The position numbers were made by a program, and so were the translations under genes. DNA of 64,000 nucleotides from Seleniivibrio woodruffii (GTDB lineage Bacteria; Chrysiogenota; Deferribacteres; Deferribacterales; Geovibrionaceae): assembly GCF_029267515.1 (NCBI RefSeq), contig NZ_JAJUIS010000002.1, positions 62,001 through 126,000 on the forward strand, read 5' to 3'. This document shows positions 27,038 to 34,643 of the stretch, piece by piece. Position 1 is the first letter of the stretch. The number at the start of each line of letters is the position of its first letter. The notes under the pieces are model-generated. The model worked only from the letters and a program-made list of their open reading frames with translations. It was not told where the DNA came from and did not search any database.

Positions 27038-29452
27038 TTATCTGTTGATTCTCAGTGAGTTGAAGACCACCAGCAGACTGCTGACGCTCATCAGGGCGGC
27101 GCTGAAAACCGGATGCACCTTGCCCGTTACAGCCAGAGGTACCATCACTATATTGTAAGAGAACGCCCAGAACAGGTTCTCCTTGATTACCCTCAGAGTT
27201 TTCACAGAAGTTTCGTGCAATGTTGTCAGCATAGGGAGTTCATCCCTCATCAGAACTATGTCGGAGCTTTCTATGGCTATATCTGTGCCCTGACCGATTG
27301 CCACGCCTACGTCCGCGGTTGTAAGAGCCGGAGCGTCGTTTATGCCGTCACCAACCATCACACAAACATTCCTGTCAGACTGATATTTTCTGACTATATC
27401 GGCTTTATCAAAAGGTGTGACATCCGAAACATATTCCAGACCCTCAACGCCGAGCTTCTGGACCAGCTTTTCAGCCGCCGCTCTGTTGTCACCTGTGATT
27501 ATGACAGCTTTCATGCCTTTTCTGCTTATGTATTGAAGTACCTCTGCTGCGTTTTCACGGATGCTGTCAGAAAGCGTTATCATGCCGCCGAATATGCCAT
27601 CTATGCCAACACAGGCGATGGTATGTCCTGTATCTGCGGTTTGCGGAACGGATATGCTATTTTCTGCCATGAACGTTTTAGTACCCACCAGAACATGTTT
27701 GCCGTCAACAAGTCCTTTGACTCCCTTGCCCGGAACTTCAGAAAAATCAGTGACAGGCAGAAAATCGTCTTCGTATGCAGTTGTTATCGCCTTTGCTATG
27801 AGGTGCGTTGAATTCTTTTCAAGTGATGCTGCCAGAGCCAGAACGGTCTTTTTGTCGTCCGCTATGATGCTTTCGACCTTCAGTTCGCCCTTGGTTATGG
27901 TGCCTGTTTTGTCGAACAGGAATACGTCAGCTTTACTGTATCTCTCTATTATATCGCCCGATTTTGCAACAGCGCCCAGTTTGGTGATTTTCGATGTAGC
28001 AATAAGTATCGCCAGAGGGGTTGCAAGTCCCAGAGCGCAGGGGCAGGCTATTACAAGCACGGAAACCGCCGTCATTACGGAAGTCAGCACGTCCCCGCTG
28101 TGCAGATACCAGAATATGAATGTCGCCGCGGCAATTGCCAGTATGGATGGAACAAACCATGCCACTACCTTGTCTGCGACGTTCTGTATGGGCGCTTTTG
28201 AAGACTGCGCATCCTCCACAGCCTGAACTATTTTGGAGAGTGTCGTCGTTGCTCCCACCTGTTCAATCTGAACGACAATACTGCCGTTGATGTTGATGGT
28301 TCCGGCGAACACTTTATCGCCGTGCGACTTATACTTGGGACTGGATTCCCCTGTCAGCATGGATTCGTTTATCTCCGTGCTGCCTTTAACGACATATCCG
28401 TCGGCAGGCACCGAGTCACCCGGCAAAACCTCAAGATATTGTCCGGAGCGTACCTGTTTAACGTGTACCATCACGGATTCGTACTGTTTTTCAGGGTTAA
28501 AATCTTCTATGAGCCTCACCTGAGTTGGCTGGTATGTAAGGAGCTTTGAAACCGCGTTAGAGGTGCGTACCTTCGCTCCGGCTTCAATGTAGCGCCCAAG
28601 AAGGATGAGCGTAATTATGTTCGCAGTTGTGTCGAAATATATCTCTTTGTTCATGAAGAGTGCAAAGATGCTGTAGACATATGCGGTGAACGAACCCAGA
28701 AAGATAAGGGTGTCCATGGTTGTATGTCCTTTGCGTATCGCCTGTAAAGAGCTTTTGATGAAGGGATAGCCCGAATAGAACATTACAGGGGTGCAGAGGA
28801 ACCATGCGATGTATTCGAAAAAGTCTTTGAGTCCCGCGTTGATACCCTGAAAATATCCGGCGTAAAGGGCAACTGTATAAATCATTAACTGCATTGTAAA
28901 AAATGCGGCTATGGAGAAACGGTAGAAATAATCTTTCTTTTCGTTTTCGTATATGGTTTCGACAGATGATTTGCTTATGGGAAGAGGGCAGTAGCCTATG
29001 GACGTTATCCTGTCGATTATCTCGGCAAGGGTTATTTTCCCTTTTTCCCAGCGGATTCGGGCTTTGTGGGTGGCGTAGTTCACGCGAACCGACTCCACCC
29101 CTTCCGCCTTTGATATGTAGGTTTCTATCAGCCAGATACATGCGGCACATCTTATGCCGCTGAGAGCGATGTCCACTTCATAACCTGTGTCTGTCAGCTT
29201 TATGCTGTCGAAGAATAGATCCTCCGACACTTTGACATTGGACACGGCACCCGCTTCCCATTCGCCCTCTCTTTTTGAGTAAAATTTGCCAAGCCCTTCT
29301 GTTTTGAGTATCTTATAAGCACCCGCACAGCCATGGCAGCAAAAGAAGACATCCTGACCGTCAATACGCTCCTGTATTGCCTGGTTTCTGTTGACCTCCT
29401 GCATACAGTGAGAACATTGAACAACCTTCTCACTTATCGTCGTCATCGTCAT
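27038..29452 (-). CDS. ccoI: Cation-transporting P1B ATPase CcoI (copper, cbb3 assembly)
   Basis: About 804 residues. N-terminal Cys-rich domain (CSHC, FCCHGC) typical of CcoI/FixI, then a heavy-metal-associated domain (GIRCAACIWL), eight membrane segments with the CPCAL metal site, DKTGT phosphorylation site, TGES actuator loop and GDGINDAP. It exports or delivers Cu for CuB of cbb3 oxidase. The ORF track starts 26 residues earlier; two ATGs (29452, 29446) fit better, both inside the ccoS 3' end. The start choice between them is open. Confidence 0.92.
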   Translation of the reverse strand: MTMTTISEKVVQCSHCMQEVNRNQAIQERIDGQDVFFCCHGCAGAYKILKTEGLGKFYSKREGEWEAGAVSNVKVSEDLFFDSIKLTDTGYEVDIALSGIRCAACIWLIETYISKAEGVESVRVNYATHKARIRWEKGKITLAEIIDRITSIGYCPLPISKSSVETIYENEKKDYFYRFSIAAFFTMQLMIYTVALYAGYFQGINAGLKDFFEYIAWFLCTPVMFYSGYPFIKSSLQAIRKGHTTMDTLIFLGSFTAYVYSIFALFMNKEIYFDTTANIITLILLGRYIEAGAKVRTSNAVSKLLTYQPTQVRLIEDFNPEKQYESVMVHVKQVRSGQYLEVLPGDSVPADGYVVKGSTEINESMLTGESSPKYKSHGDKVFAGTININGSIVVQIEQVGATTTLSKIVQAVEDAQSSKAPIQNVADKVVAWFVPSILAIAAATFIFWYLHSGDVLTSVMTAVSVLVIACPCALGLATPLAILIATSKITKLGAVAKSGDIIERYSKADVFLFDKTGTITKGELKVESIIADDKKTVLALAASLEKNSTHLIAKAITTAYEDDFLPVTDFSEVPGKGVKGLVDGKHVLVGTKTFMAENSISVPQTADTGHTIACVGIDGIFGGMITLSDSIRENAAEVLQYISRKGMKAVIITGDNRAAAEKLVQKLGVEGLEYVSDVTPFDKADIVRKYQSDRNVCVMVGDGINDAPALTTADVGVAIGQGTDIAIESSDIVLMRDELPMLTTLHETSVKTLRVIKENLFWAFSYNIVMVPLAVTGKVHPVFSAALMSVSSLLVVFNSLRINR

Positions 29453-29579
29453 CCAGCATCCGGTATTTAGGTCCTTCCATGTCTTCAAACTCCCCGCTTT
29501 TGCCTGCCCAAAGAAAAACGGCAAGGACAATCACTCCCAGAATGAGGGAGATGGGGATCATAATGTAGAGTGCGCCCAT
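29430..29579 (-). CDS. ccoS: Cbb3 oxidase maturation protein CcoS
   Basis: Too short for the ORF track: 49 residues, MGALYIMIPISLILG with one membrane segment (IPISLILGVIVLAVFLW), GKSGEFEDMEGPKYRML and an acidic tail DDDDDK. The single membrane segment followed by an F-D-D/E-x-E-G-P-like stretch is the CcoS/FixS pattern. CcoS is needed to insert heme and copper into the oxidase. Starts on the stop of the 28-codon gene (TGATG) and overlaps the ccoI start. Confidence 0.9.
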   Translation of the reverse strand: MGALYIMIPISLILGVIVLAVFLWAGKSGEFEDMEGPKYRMLDDDDDDK

Positions 29580-29665
29580 CAGTTAGCGAATTTCATCGCG
29601 AAAAAGAGGGGGATGCCTATCATAGCGATAAGCGAGACTATCATAACAACTGTTCCGAGTTTCAT
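29579..29665 (-). CDS. 28-residue membrane peptide in the cco cluster
   Basis: ATG at 29665 with a strong AGGAGG encodes MKLGTVVMIVSLIAMIGI..., a single hydrophobic helix ending KFAN, stopping on the ccoS start codon (TGATG). The ribosome site, one-base coupling and clean membrane helix argue that it is translated. I know no named family; it could be a small oxidase or assembly subunit. Confidence 0.65.
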   Translation of the reverse strand: MKLGTVVMIVSLIAMIGIPLFFAMKFAN

Positions 29666-29682: not shown

Positions 29683-30117
29683 TTATTGGTTGATATAAAA
29701 ATTCTTCCTGAGGGCTATTTCGTCCGCTGCTACTTTCGCACGAACCTCAAGAACAAAATTGCCGTAACCGTTTGCGGGAAATTCCGCTTTGTATGAACTG
29801 CCTTCAAGCCTCGGTGTGATATACACCATGTCTCCGTTTGTTGCGGGGCGCTCGACTGCGAACTTTTCATCGGCGAACGCAACTCCTGTCGCGTTTGCGA
29901 TGGCAAATTCTATCGCCACCTTATCGCCGTTTTTAACGGTTCTGATGTTTTCAAGCGCCAGACCGTTGTCCTTTATTATCTTTTCGCATTTGTCATACTC
30001 CAGCCCCGTTTCGTAAGGCTTTTCAGTTACCTTGCCGTCAAAGTATTTGATACCAAGATAAATACTCGGTGCTATGGTAAGAAAAGCCACAAAAATAATC
30101 AAAAGCGATATTTTCAT
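29683..30117 (-). CDS. FixH family protein (CcoH-like)
   Basis: 144 residues: an N-terminal membrane anchor (LLIIFVAFLTIAPSIYLGI) and a periplasmic beta domain; VTEKPYETGLEYDK just after the anchor is the FixH signature. FixH/CcoH is an assembly factor, in some bacteria a stable partner, of cbb3 oxidase. It follows ccoG after a repeat-bearing gap and precedes the 28-residue peptide by 17 bases. Confidence 0.85.
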   Translation of the reverse strand: MKISLLIIFVAFLTIAPSIYLGIKYFDGKVTEKPYETGLEYDKCEKIIKDNGLALENIRTVKNGDKVAIEFAIANATGVAFADEKFAVERPATNGDMVYITPRLEGSSYKAEFPANGYGNFVLEVRAKVAADEIALRKNFYINQ

Positions 30118-30209: not shown

Positions 30210-31436
30210 TTATTTTATAGTCTTACGTTTTGCCTTTATGGGTCTGCGGAAACTCATCTCACTCTCCTGCGGTTTCATCTCTTTGTCGTCAGGGATGGCG
30301 TGCATTTCTAGTGACAGAATAGGGAATTTTTCCAGTTTTTGCGCAGGAATGAACAGAAATACCGTTTGCTTGCCTGTTTCCGTGGGTTTGACGGTAAACG
30401 GTTTTTCATATTGCAGTTCGTACTCTTCAGTTCCCTTAACATCAAGGGTGAAGGCTATGTCCTTGTCGGAAATATTCTTAACTATAATTTCGTAAGAGTT
30501 GATTATGCGACCGTCTTTCTCTCTTGGCATGAACATCTGGTTAGGCAGAACCTGAAACTCGAATGGTTTCGTAGTTGCCGCCATCCAGATAAAAGCTATG
30601 CCGAATATAAGCGTGATGAATGTGGTTATCATCACGTTCACACGGTAAGGGTTCTTCTGTTTGTCAAACCCGAAAATATAGTGTACTAGGCTGGGATGCT
30701 GCTTTTTCTTCATGACCTTAGCGCAGGCGGTGATGCACTGCCCGCAGTTAATGCAGGCGGAAACAAGTCCTTTGCGGATGTCCAGCCCAACCGGGCAGGT
30801 TTTCACGCAGGCGTTGCATTTTATACATTTGTCCGCCGTGGCAGGGTCAAAAGCCACAATCAGCGTGTTCTTATCGAACATGATGGATTGCAGCTTGGAA
30901 TAGGGACAGATAGTCGTGCAGAACTTATAGCGTACCAGTGTGAAGCTGAGATATGTCAGCACTGTCAGTACAATGCAGAACCACGCCGTGACACTGCCGA
31001 GTGTTCCCCCCGCAAGGTCGCGGAAGAAGTCGTAGGGTGAAACGAAATAGAATACTATAGTAACGCTCGCAATGAGACTAACGAGAAACACAAGTATATG
31101 GTTAAGAACCTTATTGATAAAATTCAGTTTTTTTCTGTCAAAGAACCATGTGAGGTTTATCATCACGGTGTGGGGGCAGAACCAGCCGCACCAGATGCGA
31201 CCGTAAAGCTGTGTTATCAGTATACCGAGGAAAGTAATAAAAAATGTAAATATAAGAAGAATAAAGAAGTTTTCTATCCAAACGGATGCGCCGAAGAAAA
31301 AAAGGCGCATGGAAGGGATGTCAAAGCGCACAGCACTGTGACCGCCAACTATAAGCCAAGGGATTAGAAGGAATAAGGCGGTGTTAAAAAGCCGCACCGC
31401 CCAACGGTATTTTTGCAGATTAATCATCATCGTCAT
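30210..31436 (-). CDS. ccoG: Cytochrome c oxidase accessory protein CcoG
   Basis: About 408 residues, with several membrane segments, WCGWFCPHT, two ferredoxin-type clusters (CIKCNACVKTCPVG and CINCGQCITACAK) and a C-terminal Ig-like periplasmic domain. CcoG/RdxA reduces Cu(II) to Cu(I) during cbb3 assembly. The track start lies 11 residues further upstream; ATGs at 31436, 31430 and 31427 are nearer the family start, all inside the ccoQ 3' end. Confidence 0.93.
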   Translation of the reverse strand: MTMMINLQKYRWAVRLFNTALFLLIPWLIVGGHSAVRFDIPSMRLFFFGASVWIENFFILLIFTFFITFLGILITQLYGRIWCGWFCPHTVMINLTWFFDRKKLNFINKVLNHILVFLVSLIASVTIVFYFVSPYDFFRDLAGGTLGSVTAWFCIVLTVLTYLSFTLVRYKFCTTICPYSKLQSIMFDKNTLIVAFDPATADKCIKCNACVKTCPVGLDIRKGLVSACINCGQCITACAKVMKKKQHPSLVHYIFGFDKQKNPYRVNVMITTFITLIFGIAFIWMAATTKPFEFQVLPNQMFMPREKDGRIINSYEIIVKNISDKDIAFTLDVKGTEEYELQYEKPFTVKPTETGKQTVFLFIPAQKLEKFPILSLEMHAIPDDKEMKPQESEMSFRRPIKAKRKTIK

Positions 31437-31566
31437 CCAGCATTTTGTATTTTGCTTCCTCAACCGCATCTTTTCTCTTTTTTGAATAGTAATAGAAAAT
31501 TATTACGGCGAAGATCACTGTCAGCGACAGTCCGTAGAAAAGAAAGGAGTAAACGCTCCCAATCAT
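31420..31566 (-). CDS. ccoQ: CcoQ/FixQ-like small subunit of cbb3 oxidase
   Basis: Missing from the ORF track: 48 residues, MIGSVYSFLFYGLSLTV, one membrane segment, then YYYSKKRKDAVEEAKYKML and an acidic DDDDD tail. Length, topology and position fit CcoQ, which stabilises the oxidase. AGGAGG lies six bases before the ATG. Its last codons overlap the ccoG start. The tail closely repeats that of CcoS. Confidence 0.8.
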   Translation of the reverse strand: MIGSVYSFLFYGLSLTVIFAVIIFYYYSKKRKDAVEEAKYKMLDDDDD

Positions 31567-31591: not shown

Positions 31592-31640
31592 GACTGCTGC
31601 GTCAGTCTTCGCGAGGAGCGCAGCGACGCGGCGATCTCTT
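31592..31640. repeat. Intergenic repeat, copy 3
   Basis: GTCAGTCTTCGCGAGGAGCGCAGCGACGCGGCGATCTC; a single-arm member of the family seen at 25.7 and 30.1 kb, between the FixP_N gene and ccoQ. Confidence 0.75.
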
Positions 31641-31689: not shown

Positions 31690-31884
31690 TTACTTAGGCT
31701 GAGTCTGCATGGACTCCTGAAGCGCTTTCTCCTGCGACCACCCTGTAAAGGCGGGCGTATAAGCGTATACATAGTATATGCCGAAAACGATGAGTCCGAT
31801 AAAAAGTATCAGCCAGCCAAGGGGAAGTGCGTTTTCGGTGTCTTCCCTTGTGAATTCTTCTAAGTTATCGAATTCCTCTTGCAT
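31690..31884 (-). CDS. Free-standing FixP N-terminal domain peptide (cbb3 oxidase)
   Basis: 64 residues: acidic N-terminus (EEFDNLEEFTRED), NALPLGW, one membrane helix (LILFIGLIVFGIYYVYAY) and a short PAFTGWSQE tail. This is the membrane-anchor domain that normally begins CcoP/FixP, but no heme-binding CxxCH follows; the heme domain appears to be fused to CcoO instead. It lies 18 bases after the CcoO fusion. Confidence 0.82.
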   Translation of the reverse strand: MQEEFDNLEEFTREDTENALPLGWLILFIGLIVFGIYYVYAYTPAFTGWSQEKALQESMQTQPK

Positions 31885-31902
31885 GATTACACCTCTTCCC
31901 TG

Positions 31903-32787
31903 TTATTTAAGGCTGTTGATATAAGAAACAACAGACCATATTTTGTCTTTGCTGAGCTGTCCGGCAAAAGCGGGCATAGCGCCTTCAAGACCGTTTGCAA
32001 CGGTTATGTAGGTGTCTGTGTCAGCGGGTTCGCCTTTGGCATAGTCGGAGATGGATGCACCGATGTTGCCTTCAGCGTTCTGACCGTGGCAGCCTGCACA
32101 TTCAGCTTTGTATATAGCCTGACCTTCCGCTATGGCTTCGGGTTTTCCAGCAAGGGGGTTTGCGGCTTCTATCATTGAAGCGTCAACAACGATAGCCTCT
32201 TTTCTTGCAACGGAAGTACCGATTACCTGCATGTATGCCACAAGAGCGTCAAGCTGTGTTGCGGATGCAAGTGCAGTGGCGTCCTCTTCTGTGTAGGGGA
32301 AGCCGAGCGCTTTCATATGCGCAAGGGTTTCGGGAGCGTTGACAGGCTTGTTTTTCAGCCATGTGTATTTAGGCATGTTCGACTTAGGAAAGAACGCCTG
32401 AGGGTTCTCGAAGTGCTGAATATGCCATTCGTCGGGATATTTGCCGCCGATTCTCGCAAGGTCGGGACCTGTACGTTTTGAACCCCAAAGGAAGGGTCTG
32501 TCATAGGCAAATTCGCCTGCTTTTGAATATTCACCGTATCTCAGCACATCCGCTTTAAGGGGACGAACTGTCTGTGTGTGGCAGTTAACGCAGCCTTCCG
32601 CCTGATAGATGTCTCGTCCTGCAAGCTGCAGAGCCGTGAAAGGCTGAAGGTTTTCGTTTTTCGGGTGCATTCCCGCTGTGAACATGGGAACGAACACTGT
32701 CACAATTGTACCGATAAGTACTGTTACCGCAGCAACAACTGCGAACAGGACGGCTTTGCTGTAAAGTGAGTTTTCGTGATTGCTCAT
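31903..32787 (-). CDS. ccoO: Cbb3 oxidase subunit CcoO fused to a C-terminal cytochrome c domain
   Basis: 294 residues. An N-terminal anchor (about 11-33) and CcoO heme site CVNCH (66-70) with QTVRPL, then after about residue 210 a class I cytochrome c domain with CAGCH (230-234) and a methionine ligand candidate in AMPAFAG. Normal CcoO has one heme c and about 200 residues; the added domain looks like one of the two CcoP heme domains. The subunits would carry two hemes c in total rather than three. Confidence 0.9.
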   Translation of the reverse strand: MSNHENSLYSKAVLFAVVAAVTVLIGTIVTVFVPMFTAGMHPKNENLQPFTALQLAGRDIYQAEGCVNCHTQTVRPLKADVLRYGEYSKAGEFAYDRPFLWGSKRTGPDLARIGGKYPDEWHIQHFENPQAFFPKSNMPKYTWLKNKPVNAPETLAHMKALGFPYTEEDATALASATQLDALVAYMQVIGTSVARKEAIVVDASMIEAANPLAGKPEAIAEGQAIYKAECAGCHGQNAEGNIGASISDYAKGEPADTDTYITVANGLEGAMPAFAGQLSKDKIWSVVSYINSLK

Positions 32788-32798
32788 CGTGTGCCTCC

Positions 32799-34199
32799 CT
32801 ACGCTGCCTGTTTGGCAAGGTCGTTGCCTTTTTTGATTGTCATAAGCACGTTATATACGAAGAACAGCATACCGACAACGAATATCACACCGGCAACGGT
32901 TCTCATCTGCCAGTAGGGATAGTTACGGACCAGTGTCTCCATAAAGGTGTACTGGAGCGAGCCGTCGGCGTTTGTCATCTTCCACATAGCGCCTTGCTGG
33001 ATACCTGTTATCCACATAGTGATGGAGAACATAAGCTGTCCGATAAGGACTATCCAGAAGTGTATGTTGGCAAGTTTCTGGCTGTATATTTCGGTTTTAT
33101 ACATAGCGGGTATCATATAGTAAACTGATGCGCAGATAACCATTGTAACCCAGCCCATTGTTCCCATGTGAACGTGTCCGGGAACCCAGTCTGTATAGTG
33201 GATAAGGGAGCTTATCACCCTTATACCCTGAGAGGGACCCTGAATTGTCTGAAGACCGTAGAAGGTGATTCCAACTATGAAGAATTTTGTCAGATAGTTG
33301 GTTCTCATCTTAGACCAGTCCCTGTCCACAGTGAAGTAGCCGTTTACAACGGAACCCCATGAGGGAGCGATGAGGAACAGTGTGAATGCGATACCCAGAG
33401 TCTGTATCCAGTCGGGAAGGGGAGTGTACACAAGGTGGTGCGCCCCTGTCCAGAGATATGCAAATATCAGTGACCAGAAAGAGATGATGGACAGTCTGTG
33501 GCTGTATATAGGCAGCCCGGTAGACTTGGGAAGGAAATAGTAGAACATTGCAAGTATGGGAGTTGTGAAAAGGAAACCCACTGCGTTGTGTCCGTACCAC
33601 CACTCAACGTTCGCACTGTTTACACCTGCAAAAAGGTGATAAGACTTTGTGAGCGACGCGGGGATCGCAAGGTTGTTAACGATGTACAGAATTGCAACAG
33701 TTATGATCGTCGCAATTACATACCAGAGAGAAACGTACATGTTTTTCTCTTTTCTTGTGAATACGTTGCCGAGAACGTTTATCGCAAACAGTACCCAGAG
33801 GATAACTATCGCGATGTCGATTGGCCACTCGAACTCTGCATATTCAAGAGACTGGTTCATGCCTGCGAAGAGAGAGAGCGTCGCAAGAACCATGCCGACA
33901 TTGAACAGCCAAAGGTGGAAACGCGCCAGTTTCGGAAGAACCAGCGGTCTCTTGGTCAGCCTCATGACGATATAATAGAATATACCGAATTCGGCGCCGA
34001 TTCCGAGCCCGTATGCCAGAACGTTGACGTGAAGGGTTCTGAGCCTGCCATATGAGAAATACTCACCAAAGTTAAGGTTAGCATCCCAAAGCTGGGCAGA
34101 GATGAGAAGACCCATCACAAGCCCGATGACACCCCAAAAGATGGCGGAGAGAACGAATCCCTGTACCGTCTTGTAGTCGTAATGAAACTCGTTGTTCAT
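32799..34199 (-). CDS. ccoN: Cbb3-type cytochrome c oxidase subunit I
   Basis: 466 residues, about twelve membrane segments. Heme and CuB ligand histidines are visible in LHVNVLAYG, WWYGHNAVGF, GAHHLVYTP and DWVPGHVHMG. It reduces oxygen with high affinity and pumps protons. The start lies directly after the Rrf2 gene stop, with AGGAGG inside that gene's 3' end, so regulator and oxidase are one transcript. Confidence 0.96.
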   Translation of the reverse strand: MNNEFHYDYKTVQGFVLSAIFWGVIGLVMGLLISAQLWDANLNFGEYFSYGRLRTLHVNVLAYGLGIGAEFGIFYYIVMRLTKRPLVLPKLARFHLWLFNVGMVLATLSLFAGMNQSLEYAEFEWPIDIAIVILWVLFAINVLGNVFTRKEKNMYVSLWYVIATIITVAILYIVNNLAIPASLTKSYHLFAGVNSANVEWWYGHNAVGFLFTTPILAMFYYFLPKSTGLPIYSHRLSIISFWSLIFAYLWTGAHHLVYTPLPDWIQTLGIAFTLFLIAPSWGSVVNGYFTVDRDWSKMRTNYLTKFFIVGITFYGLQTIQGPSQGIRVISSLIHYTDWVPGHVHMGTMGWVTMVICASVYYMIPAMYKTEIYSQKLANIHFWIVLIGQLMFSITMWITGIQQGAMWKMTNADGSLQYTFMETLVRNYPYWQMRTVAGVIFVVGMLFFVYNVLMTIKKGNDLAKQAA

Positions 34200-34643
34200 T
34201 CAGACCTCCTGCATTGATTTGGATTTTAAAAACAGTTCGTTACCATTAAAAAGAAACTCTTTTATCTTGGCCTCTTTCAGCCTATCCTCTATGTCTTTCT
34301 GGATATTGCTGAAAAGTCTGTTGATCTTGCAGATGGGGAAAAGCTGGCAGGTAGCGTTGTTTGTTGTGCAGGAGTTCACCCTTCCGGTGAATCCCATGCA
34401 GGCGAGTATATCGTACATACTGGCTTCGAGAGTTTTTTCCCCGATGGTCAAACCGCCGTCTTTTCCGGTTTTGGTCACGATAAAACCGCAGTTTTTGAGT
34501 TTGTTGATTATTTTGACAACGATAGGGCGGGAAAGATAGAGTGAGCGGCAGATGTCGTCTGTTTTAACCTGTTTACCGACAGTTGCCAGAAACACGATGA
34601 TCCGTATTGCATAGTCTTCTTCACGCAGTATGAATGAATCCAA
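34200..34643 (-). CDS. Rrf2-family transcriptional regulator with Fe-S cysteines
   Basis: 147 residues. N-terminal winged helix (DYAIRIIVFLA...SRPIVVKIINKLKNCGFI...KDGGLTI) and cysteines C92, C99 and C105, close to the IscR/NsrR cluster ligands. It probably senses oxygen, NO or Fe-S state and controls the cco operon it heads. Start is TTG with GAGAGG upstream; that ribosome site is part of a palindrome that may be its operator. Confidence 0.88.
   Translation of the reverse strand: MDSFILREEDYAIRIIVFLATVGKQVKTDDICRSLYLSRPIVVKIINKLKNCGFIVTKTGKDGGLTIGEKTLEASMYDILACMGFTGRVNSCTTNNATCQLFPICKINRLFSNIQKDIEDRLKEAKIKEFLFNGNELFLKSKSMQEV

Follow-up and report, generated by a model that had tools for sequence, protein, structure and literature searches.

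Can an operon for a cbb3-type oxidase, a high-affinity enzyme of oxygen respiration, be complete when none of its genes encodes a diheme CcoP? The question is raised by a locus of Seleniivibrio woodruffii that lies within the 64,000-nucleotide stretch of DNA analyzed here (the window). Judged from sequence, we consider it probable (about 0.8) that this operon encodes a working C-type (cbb3) oxidase with a split CcoP and two hemes c, an arrangement that would be both old and stable. A CcoP-type heme c domain would sit at the C-terminus of CcoO, and the membrane helix of CcoP, together with the short segment that follows it, would form a separate 64-amino-acid subunit.

Operon organization and the two pieces of CcoP

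The genes run on the minus strand in the order ccoN, CcoO::cytochrome c, anchor peptide, ccoQ, ccoG, ccoH, micropeptide, ccoS and ccoI (Table 1), and the features that mark a C-type (cbb3) heme-copper oxidase are present: the CcoN motifs, a membrane-bound CcoO heme site (here with an extra domain), and ccoGHIS together with ccoQ. CcoN contains RTLHVN (54), YGHNA (202), AYLWTGAHH (247) and PGHVHMG (340), which we take to supply the His ligands of heme b, heme b3 and CuB and the helix-VII Tyr; TIGR00780 scores the protein at 527 bits, under its cut-off of 583. For the canonical diheme CcoP family (TIGR00782, cut-off 179.95), the anchor peptide reached 21.5 bits and the fusion 51.6 bits. By these comparisons the operon appears to match a cbb3 oxidase on every feature tested, yet it falls outside the definition of a canonical CcoP. 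Directly upstream of ccoN (34200-34643, minus strand) lies a gene for an Rrf2-family regulator with the cysteine set C-x6-C-x5-C, which could act as an Fe-S sensor and regulate the oxidase.

Table 1. Features of the oxidase locus, in window coordinates.
Feature	Position	Strand	Size and matches	Remarks
ccoN, catalytic subunit	32799..34199	-	466 aa; COX1 355 bits	
CcoO::cytochrome c fusion	31903..32787	-	294 aa; FixO + Cytochrome_CBB3; NF011054/PRK14486	
First heme c site, CVNCH	32578..32592	-		CcoO part, residues 66-70
Tail cytochrome c domain	31918..32136	-	Cytochrome_CBB3 (PF13442) 66.2 bits	residues 218-290
Second heme c site, CAGCH	32086..32100	-		tail, residues 230-234
Stand-alone CcoP anchor peptide	31690..31884	-	64 aa; FixP_N (PF14715) 30.1 bits, cut-off 24.9	
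Terminator-like stem-loop	31652..31675	-	10-bp stem; z = -3.6	directly after anchor gene
ccoQ	31420..31566	-	48 aa; FixQ 31.0 bits, cut-off 29	
ccoG	30210..31469	-	FixG_C + Fer4_18; TIGR02745 240 bits, under its cut-off	
ccoH	29683..30117	-	FixH 23.4 bits, cut-off 23	
Single-helix micropeptide MKLGTVVMIVSLIAMIGIPLFFAMKFAN	29579..29665	-	28 aa	between ccoH and ccoS
ccoS	29430..29579	-	49 aa; FixS about 72-74 bits	
ccoI, copper-transporting P-type ATPase	27038..29530	-	E1-E2_ATPase, HMA, ATPase-cat_bd; TIGR01511 553 bits	

The fusion combines a FixO domain (residues 8-172, 232.7 bits) with the C-terminal cytochrome c domain, or tail, and matches NF011054/PRK14486 ('subunit II/cytochrome c') over its full length (residues 5-294 to model positions 2-291, 449.1 bits, cut-off 447). 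The fusion protein is therefore already known as a named NCBIfam family and is not peculiar to this genome; that family's name gives no hint of an accompanying anchor peptide, of the absence of a CcoP or of how many hemes there are. In alignments with structure 3mk7, CcoO (chain B) pairs end to end with fusion residues 10-196 and CcoP with residues 215-294, placing the start of the tail past the normal C-terminus of CcoO. The ligands of both hemes are conserved without exception among 11 aligned members (C66-C69-H70 and M138-P139 for the first, C230-C233-H234 and M271-P272 for the second). An AlphaFold2 model, too poor around the first (CcoO) heme for geometry, supports a CcoO core and a cytochrome c fold. 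Two home-made HMMs of CcoP domains gave 45.6 and 39.4 bits for the tail, and by these HMMs the tail is closer to CcoP domains than unrelated cytochromes of the same genome are. Neither the HMMs nor a tree of heme domains (91 columns) clearly assigned it to CcoP domain 1 or 2.

The anchor gene has its own ribosome-binding site (GAGGTG) upstream of an ATG, and its 64-residue product lacks a CxxCH heme motif. An HMM built from 66 canonical CcoP N-termini gave a score of 27.2 bits to this product and of 20-30 bits to most of the peptides related to it. Among 36 stand-alone peptides the consensus (EEfDdie.f.ReDTenkLPlGWlILFiGLIvfGIYY.yaYTPafsGWtQekAyeesm) parallels that of canonical CcoP ('NPLPrWW..LF..TivFa..YL.LYPGLGn..G.LGWts.gqye.E') through the helix and the next 'GWtQ/GWts' segment, and the CcoP of a Nitrospirae locus (L053) has this anchor too, with 'YTPQISGWSQ', continuing there into a single heme domain. 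Identity with CcoQ was considered and ruled out, since the cluster contains a distinct ccoQ. In Anaeromyxobacter oryzae (L052), the fusion gene is followed at a distance of about 14 bases by an ORF for a 93-amino-acid peptide in which a FixP_N anchor and a second transmembrane helix are joined; a separate CcoQ-like ORF lies farther along.

Both proteins are thus as the first-pass annotation had described them: a CcoO-like protein with a second CAGCH domain at its C-terminus, here confirmed by FixO and Cytochrome_CBB3 matches with invariant ligands, and a FixP_N-like peptide of 64 residues, which scores over the gathering threshold and has no CxxCH. Its account had overlooked ccoQ, ccoS, the hairpin after the anchor gene and the micropeptide.

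Conservation and range of architectures

The S. woodruffii genome, which is 99.97% complete, was searched family by family with profiles. Its single FixP_N match is the anchor peptide; no diheme CcoP, linked or unlinked, was found in the genome, and no other cytochrome c match bears FixP_N. The cytochrome c matches that were read, all but two single-domain ones on contigs C10 and C13, are not CcoP. They include a small soluble cytochrome c, a tetraheme cytochrome c adjoining a cytochrome b, and a CoxB-like subunit II of a second oxidase (L004, contig C26), whose C-terminal part holds two cytochrome c domains. A quinol-oxidizing cluster (L133, contig C11) comprises a putative NrfD-like protein, a putative Rieske protein, cytochrome b and a putative tetraheme cytochrome c, the last of which stands in place of cytochrome c1.

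A full-length fusion was present in 36 of 60 relatives (the first 60 genomes searched), and in all 36 a FixP_N segment follows immediately downstream. In 35 of these the segment is a short heme-free ORF; the exception, genome G048, has it within a 215-amino-acid frame with one heme, a monoheme CcoP. The weakest of the 36 FixP_N matches was that of G041 (E = 0.058). Within the genus, comparison with the four closest relatives gave dN of 0.04-0.08 versus dS of 0.37-1.58 for the anchor peptide, which is therefore under purifying selection there. The fusion with a separate anchor is conserved across the whole order and in several other phyla, and, being real and so widely kept, it represents a stable variant instead of a damaged gene.

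These results bear on two explanations that would deprive the anchor of a function. A sequencing error or a broken ccoP, which the first-pass annotation had named beside a diheme CcoP elsewhere as what would overturn its reading, could make CcoP look missing from one genome in just this way; dozens of independent genomes, however, share the gene boundaries, and no relic of a heme domain was seen in the 123 bases that separate the anchor gene from ccoQ. With the adjacent FixP_N segment in every fusion relative and purifying selection on it, we regard this explanation as refuted, its chance being negligible, and the single FixP_N locus disposes of the diheme CcoP elsewhere. That the peptide is a dispensable remnant and not a subunit is also very improbable, if less so: some fusion loci have no recognisable copy of it, but it is kept beside the fusion in 36/36 relatives, is under purifying selection, has its own ribosome site, and persists even where the tail domain is absent. 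The preferred reading thus remains that of a split CcoP whose anchor is a subunit in its own right.

A survey of 385 genomes and a named scan, which take up the comparison of relatives proposed in the first-pass annotation, found the fusion throughout the order as well as in genomes of Nitrospirae, Geobacter, Anaeromyxobacter and Desulfuromonadales type. The fusion with a bare anchor recurs, and intermediates exist. Canonical CcoNOQP (PDB 3mk7/5djq, 6xkw), with monoheme CcoO and diheme CcoP, shares with the window locus CcoN, the CcoO core, CcoQ and ccoGHIS; the window locus departs from it in having no diheme CcoP, a free anchor and one heme domain carried by CcoO. A monoheme CcoO with monoheme CcoP occurs in Bacteroidota-type CcoN-CcoO fusions and in L053 (Nitrospirae) and L055 (Chlorobiaceae); the total of two hemes c is as in the window, but the second heme is still on an anchored CcoP. 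One-tail CcoO is found with monoheme CcoP (L022, L043, L050, L051) or with a bare anchor, the latter being the form of the window locus and of most fusions. Two-tail CcoO (L040, L044, L045) likewise carries heme c domains on CcoO, but there all three hemes c are on this subunit. Finally, two loci (L140, L141) from genomes of about 1.3 Mb (G046, G047) combine a tail-less CcoO with a bare anchor, and as no Cytochrome_CBB3 match over the cut-off was found elsewhere in these genomes, their cbb3 operons apparently encode one heme c in all. The L045 anchor is weak (11.8 bits), and no convincing anchor was found in L042, L044, L040 or L049, L040 and L044 ending at contig ends. The number of hemes c therefore runs from one to three, while the anchor is usually kept. 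Heme c domains behave as modules that have passed between CcoO and CcoP in the course of evolution.

Origin of the tail domain

An unrooted CcoN tree of 67 rows, obtained by quick search, placed the fusion-plus-anchor rows in one main group that also holds the two-tail and no-tail forms. Its close neighbors include lineages with monoheme CcoO and monoheme CcoP, and the nearest unfused relatives, L053 and L055, are of this kind. One domain may therefore have moved with nothing lost, and a second heme domain may never have been present here.

The first-pass annotation had proposed instead the move of one heme domain of CcoP to CcoO and the loss of the other, which is unsupported as a specific history. 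An ancestral diheme CcoP, of which one domain moved and the other was deleted to leave the anchor, would agree with the diheme CcoP of canonical Pseudomonadota, and the loci with fusion plus monoheme CcoP resemble a halfway stage. However, CcoP is monoheme in L053 and L055, the nearest relatives without the fusion on the CcoN tree, and the apparent halfway loci lie on a separate CcoN branch and hold both a tail and a CcoP domain, which differ from each other. We therefore think this course of events rather unlikely. Slightly less likely still is the recruitment of an unrelated cytochrome c onto CcoO with simple loss of the CcoP heme domain or domains. Against the CcoP domain HMMs the tails reach no more than moderate scores (40-51 bits in most relatives but 22 bits in L022), and when the PDB is searched, certain unrelated cytochromes c come near the score of CcoP. 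Against recruitment, Cytochrome_CBB3 is the best Pfam family of the tail, and the heme-domain tree groups the tails, with modest support, with monoheme CcoP domains from outside the Pseudomonadota; control cytochromes of the same genome fall apart from the tails, again weakly supported.

Accessory features and proposed working of the enzyme

Between the anchor gene and ccoQ lies a GC-rich stem-loop whose counterparts at 25 loci have a median z of -3.4, versus -0.4 for control segments. Its position is kept in most of these loci and its sequence differs between loci and families; it is absent in the f6 loci L030, L034 and L036 and in L041. A 3' end or an attenuator may lie here, setting ccoN, ccoO::c and the anchor apart from the assembly genes. 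A nearby GC-rich, repeat-like stretch (31603-31628) has just one other near-copy in the genome. ccoQ, preceded by AAGGAGG before its ATG, is under purifying selection (dN 0.00-0.09 versus dS 0.24-1.25 in the four closest relatives); the true start of ccoG is probably near 31427, after ccoQ, and the ccoI start, which overlaps ccoS, is a mechanical call. Membrane micropeptides of 26-28 amino acids with an AGGAGG-type ribosome site were present in 11 of 13 loci (among them L162-L167 and L170-L173), with dN well below dS; in the window the stop of the micropeptide gene overlaps the ccoS start. The micropeptide has no confident match in Pfam or NCBIfam and could serve the oxidase as a small subunit or in its assembly.

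Electrons would leave quinol by way of the Rieske/cytochrome b complex that is encoded, together with a tetraheme cytochrome, elsewhere in the genome. A c-type carrier would take them to the tail heme, from which they would pass through the CcoO heme and heme b to heme b3-CuB in CcoN. The canonical order of cbb3 cofactors is cp2, cp1, co, b, b3 (PMC7876108), and the window enzyme would therefore be missing one relay. The reading of two hemes c in place of three, the second on CcoO and the CcoP anchor left as a separate peptide, is borne out at the level of sequence, and it is plausible that the path of the electrons is shorter. Work on model systems shows that CcoH binds CcoP via its transmembrane domain and CcoQ stabilizes CcoP binding (PMC8267372), and the CcoP helix is located at the bc1-cbb3 interface (PMC7876108). 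The free anchor would keep the structural job of this helix, packing on CcoN and offering a contact surface for CcoH and CcoQ. We suggest tentatively, with doubt slightly outweighing confidence, that the CcoP helix is an autonomous, essential structural subunit kept while heme c domains move, halve or vanish, and that the undescribed micropeptide of the same operon belongs to the oxidase or its assembly.

A literature search that covered few subscription papers found no description of the split-CcoP arrangement, and one paper mentions PRK14486 merely as a domain match. Where a genome paper expects a diheme ccoP, such operons can be labeled incomplete. In a 2026 study of two Deferribacter species, probably members of the same order, ccoP and ccoQ 'were not evidenced' and the oxidase was 'only partially encoded' (PMC13186404); split genes may explain this, as nearly all genomes of this order that we examined and that have the full-length fusion carry the split pieces beside it (the two genomes of that study were not recognised among them). 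The arrangement suggests that anchoring by CcoP can be parted from its electron relay and that nature has done so, and split operons are natural test systems for the role of the CcoP helix without its hemes.
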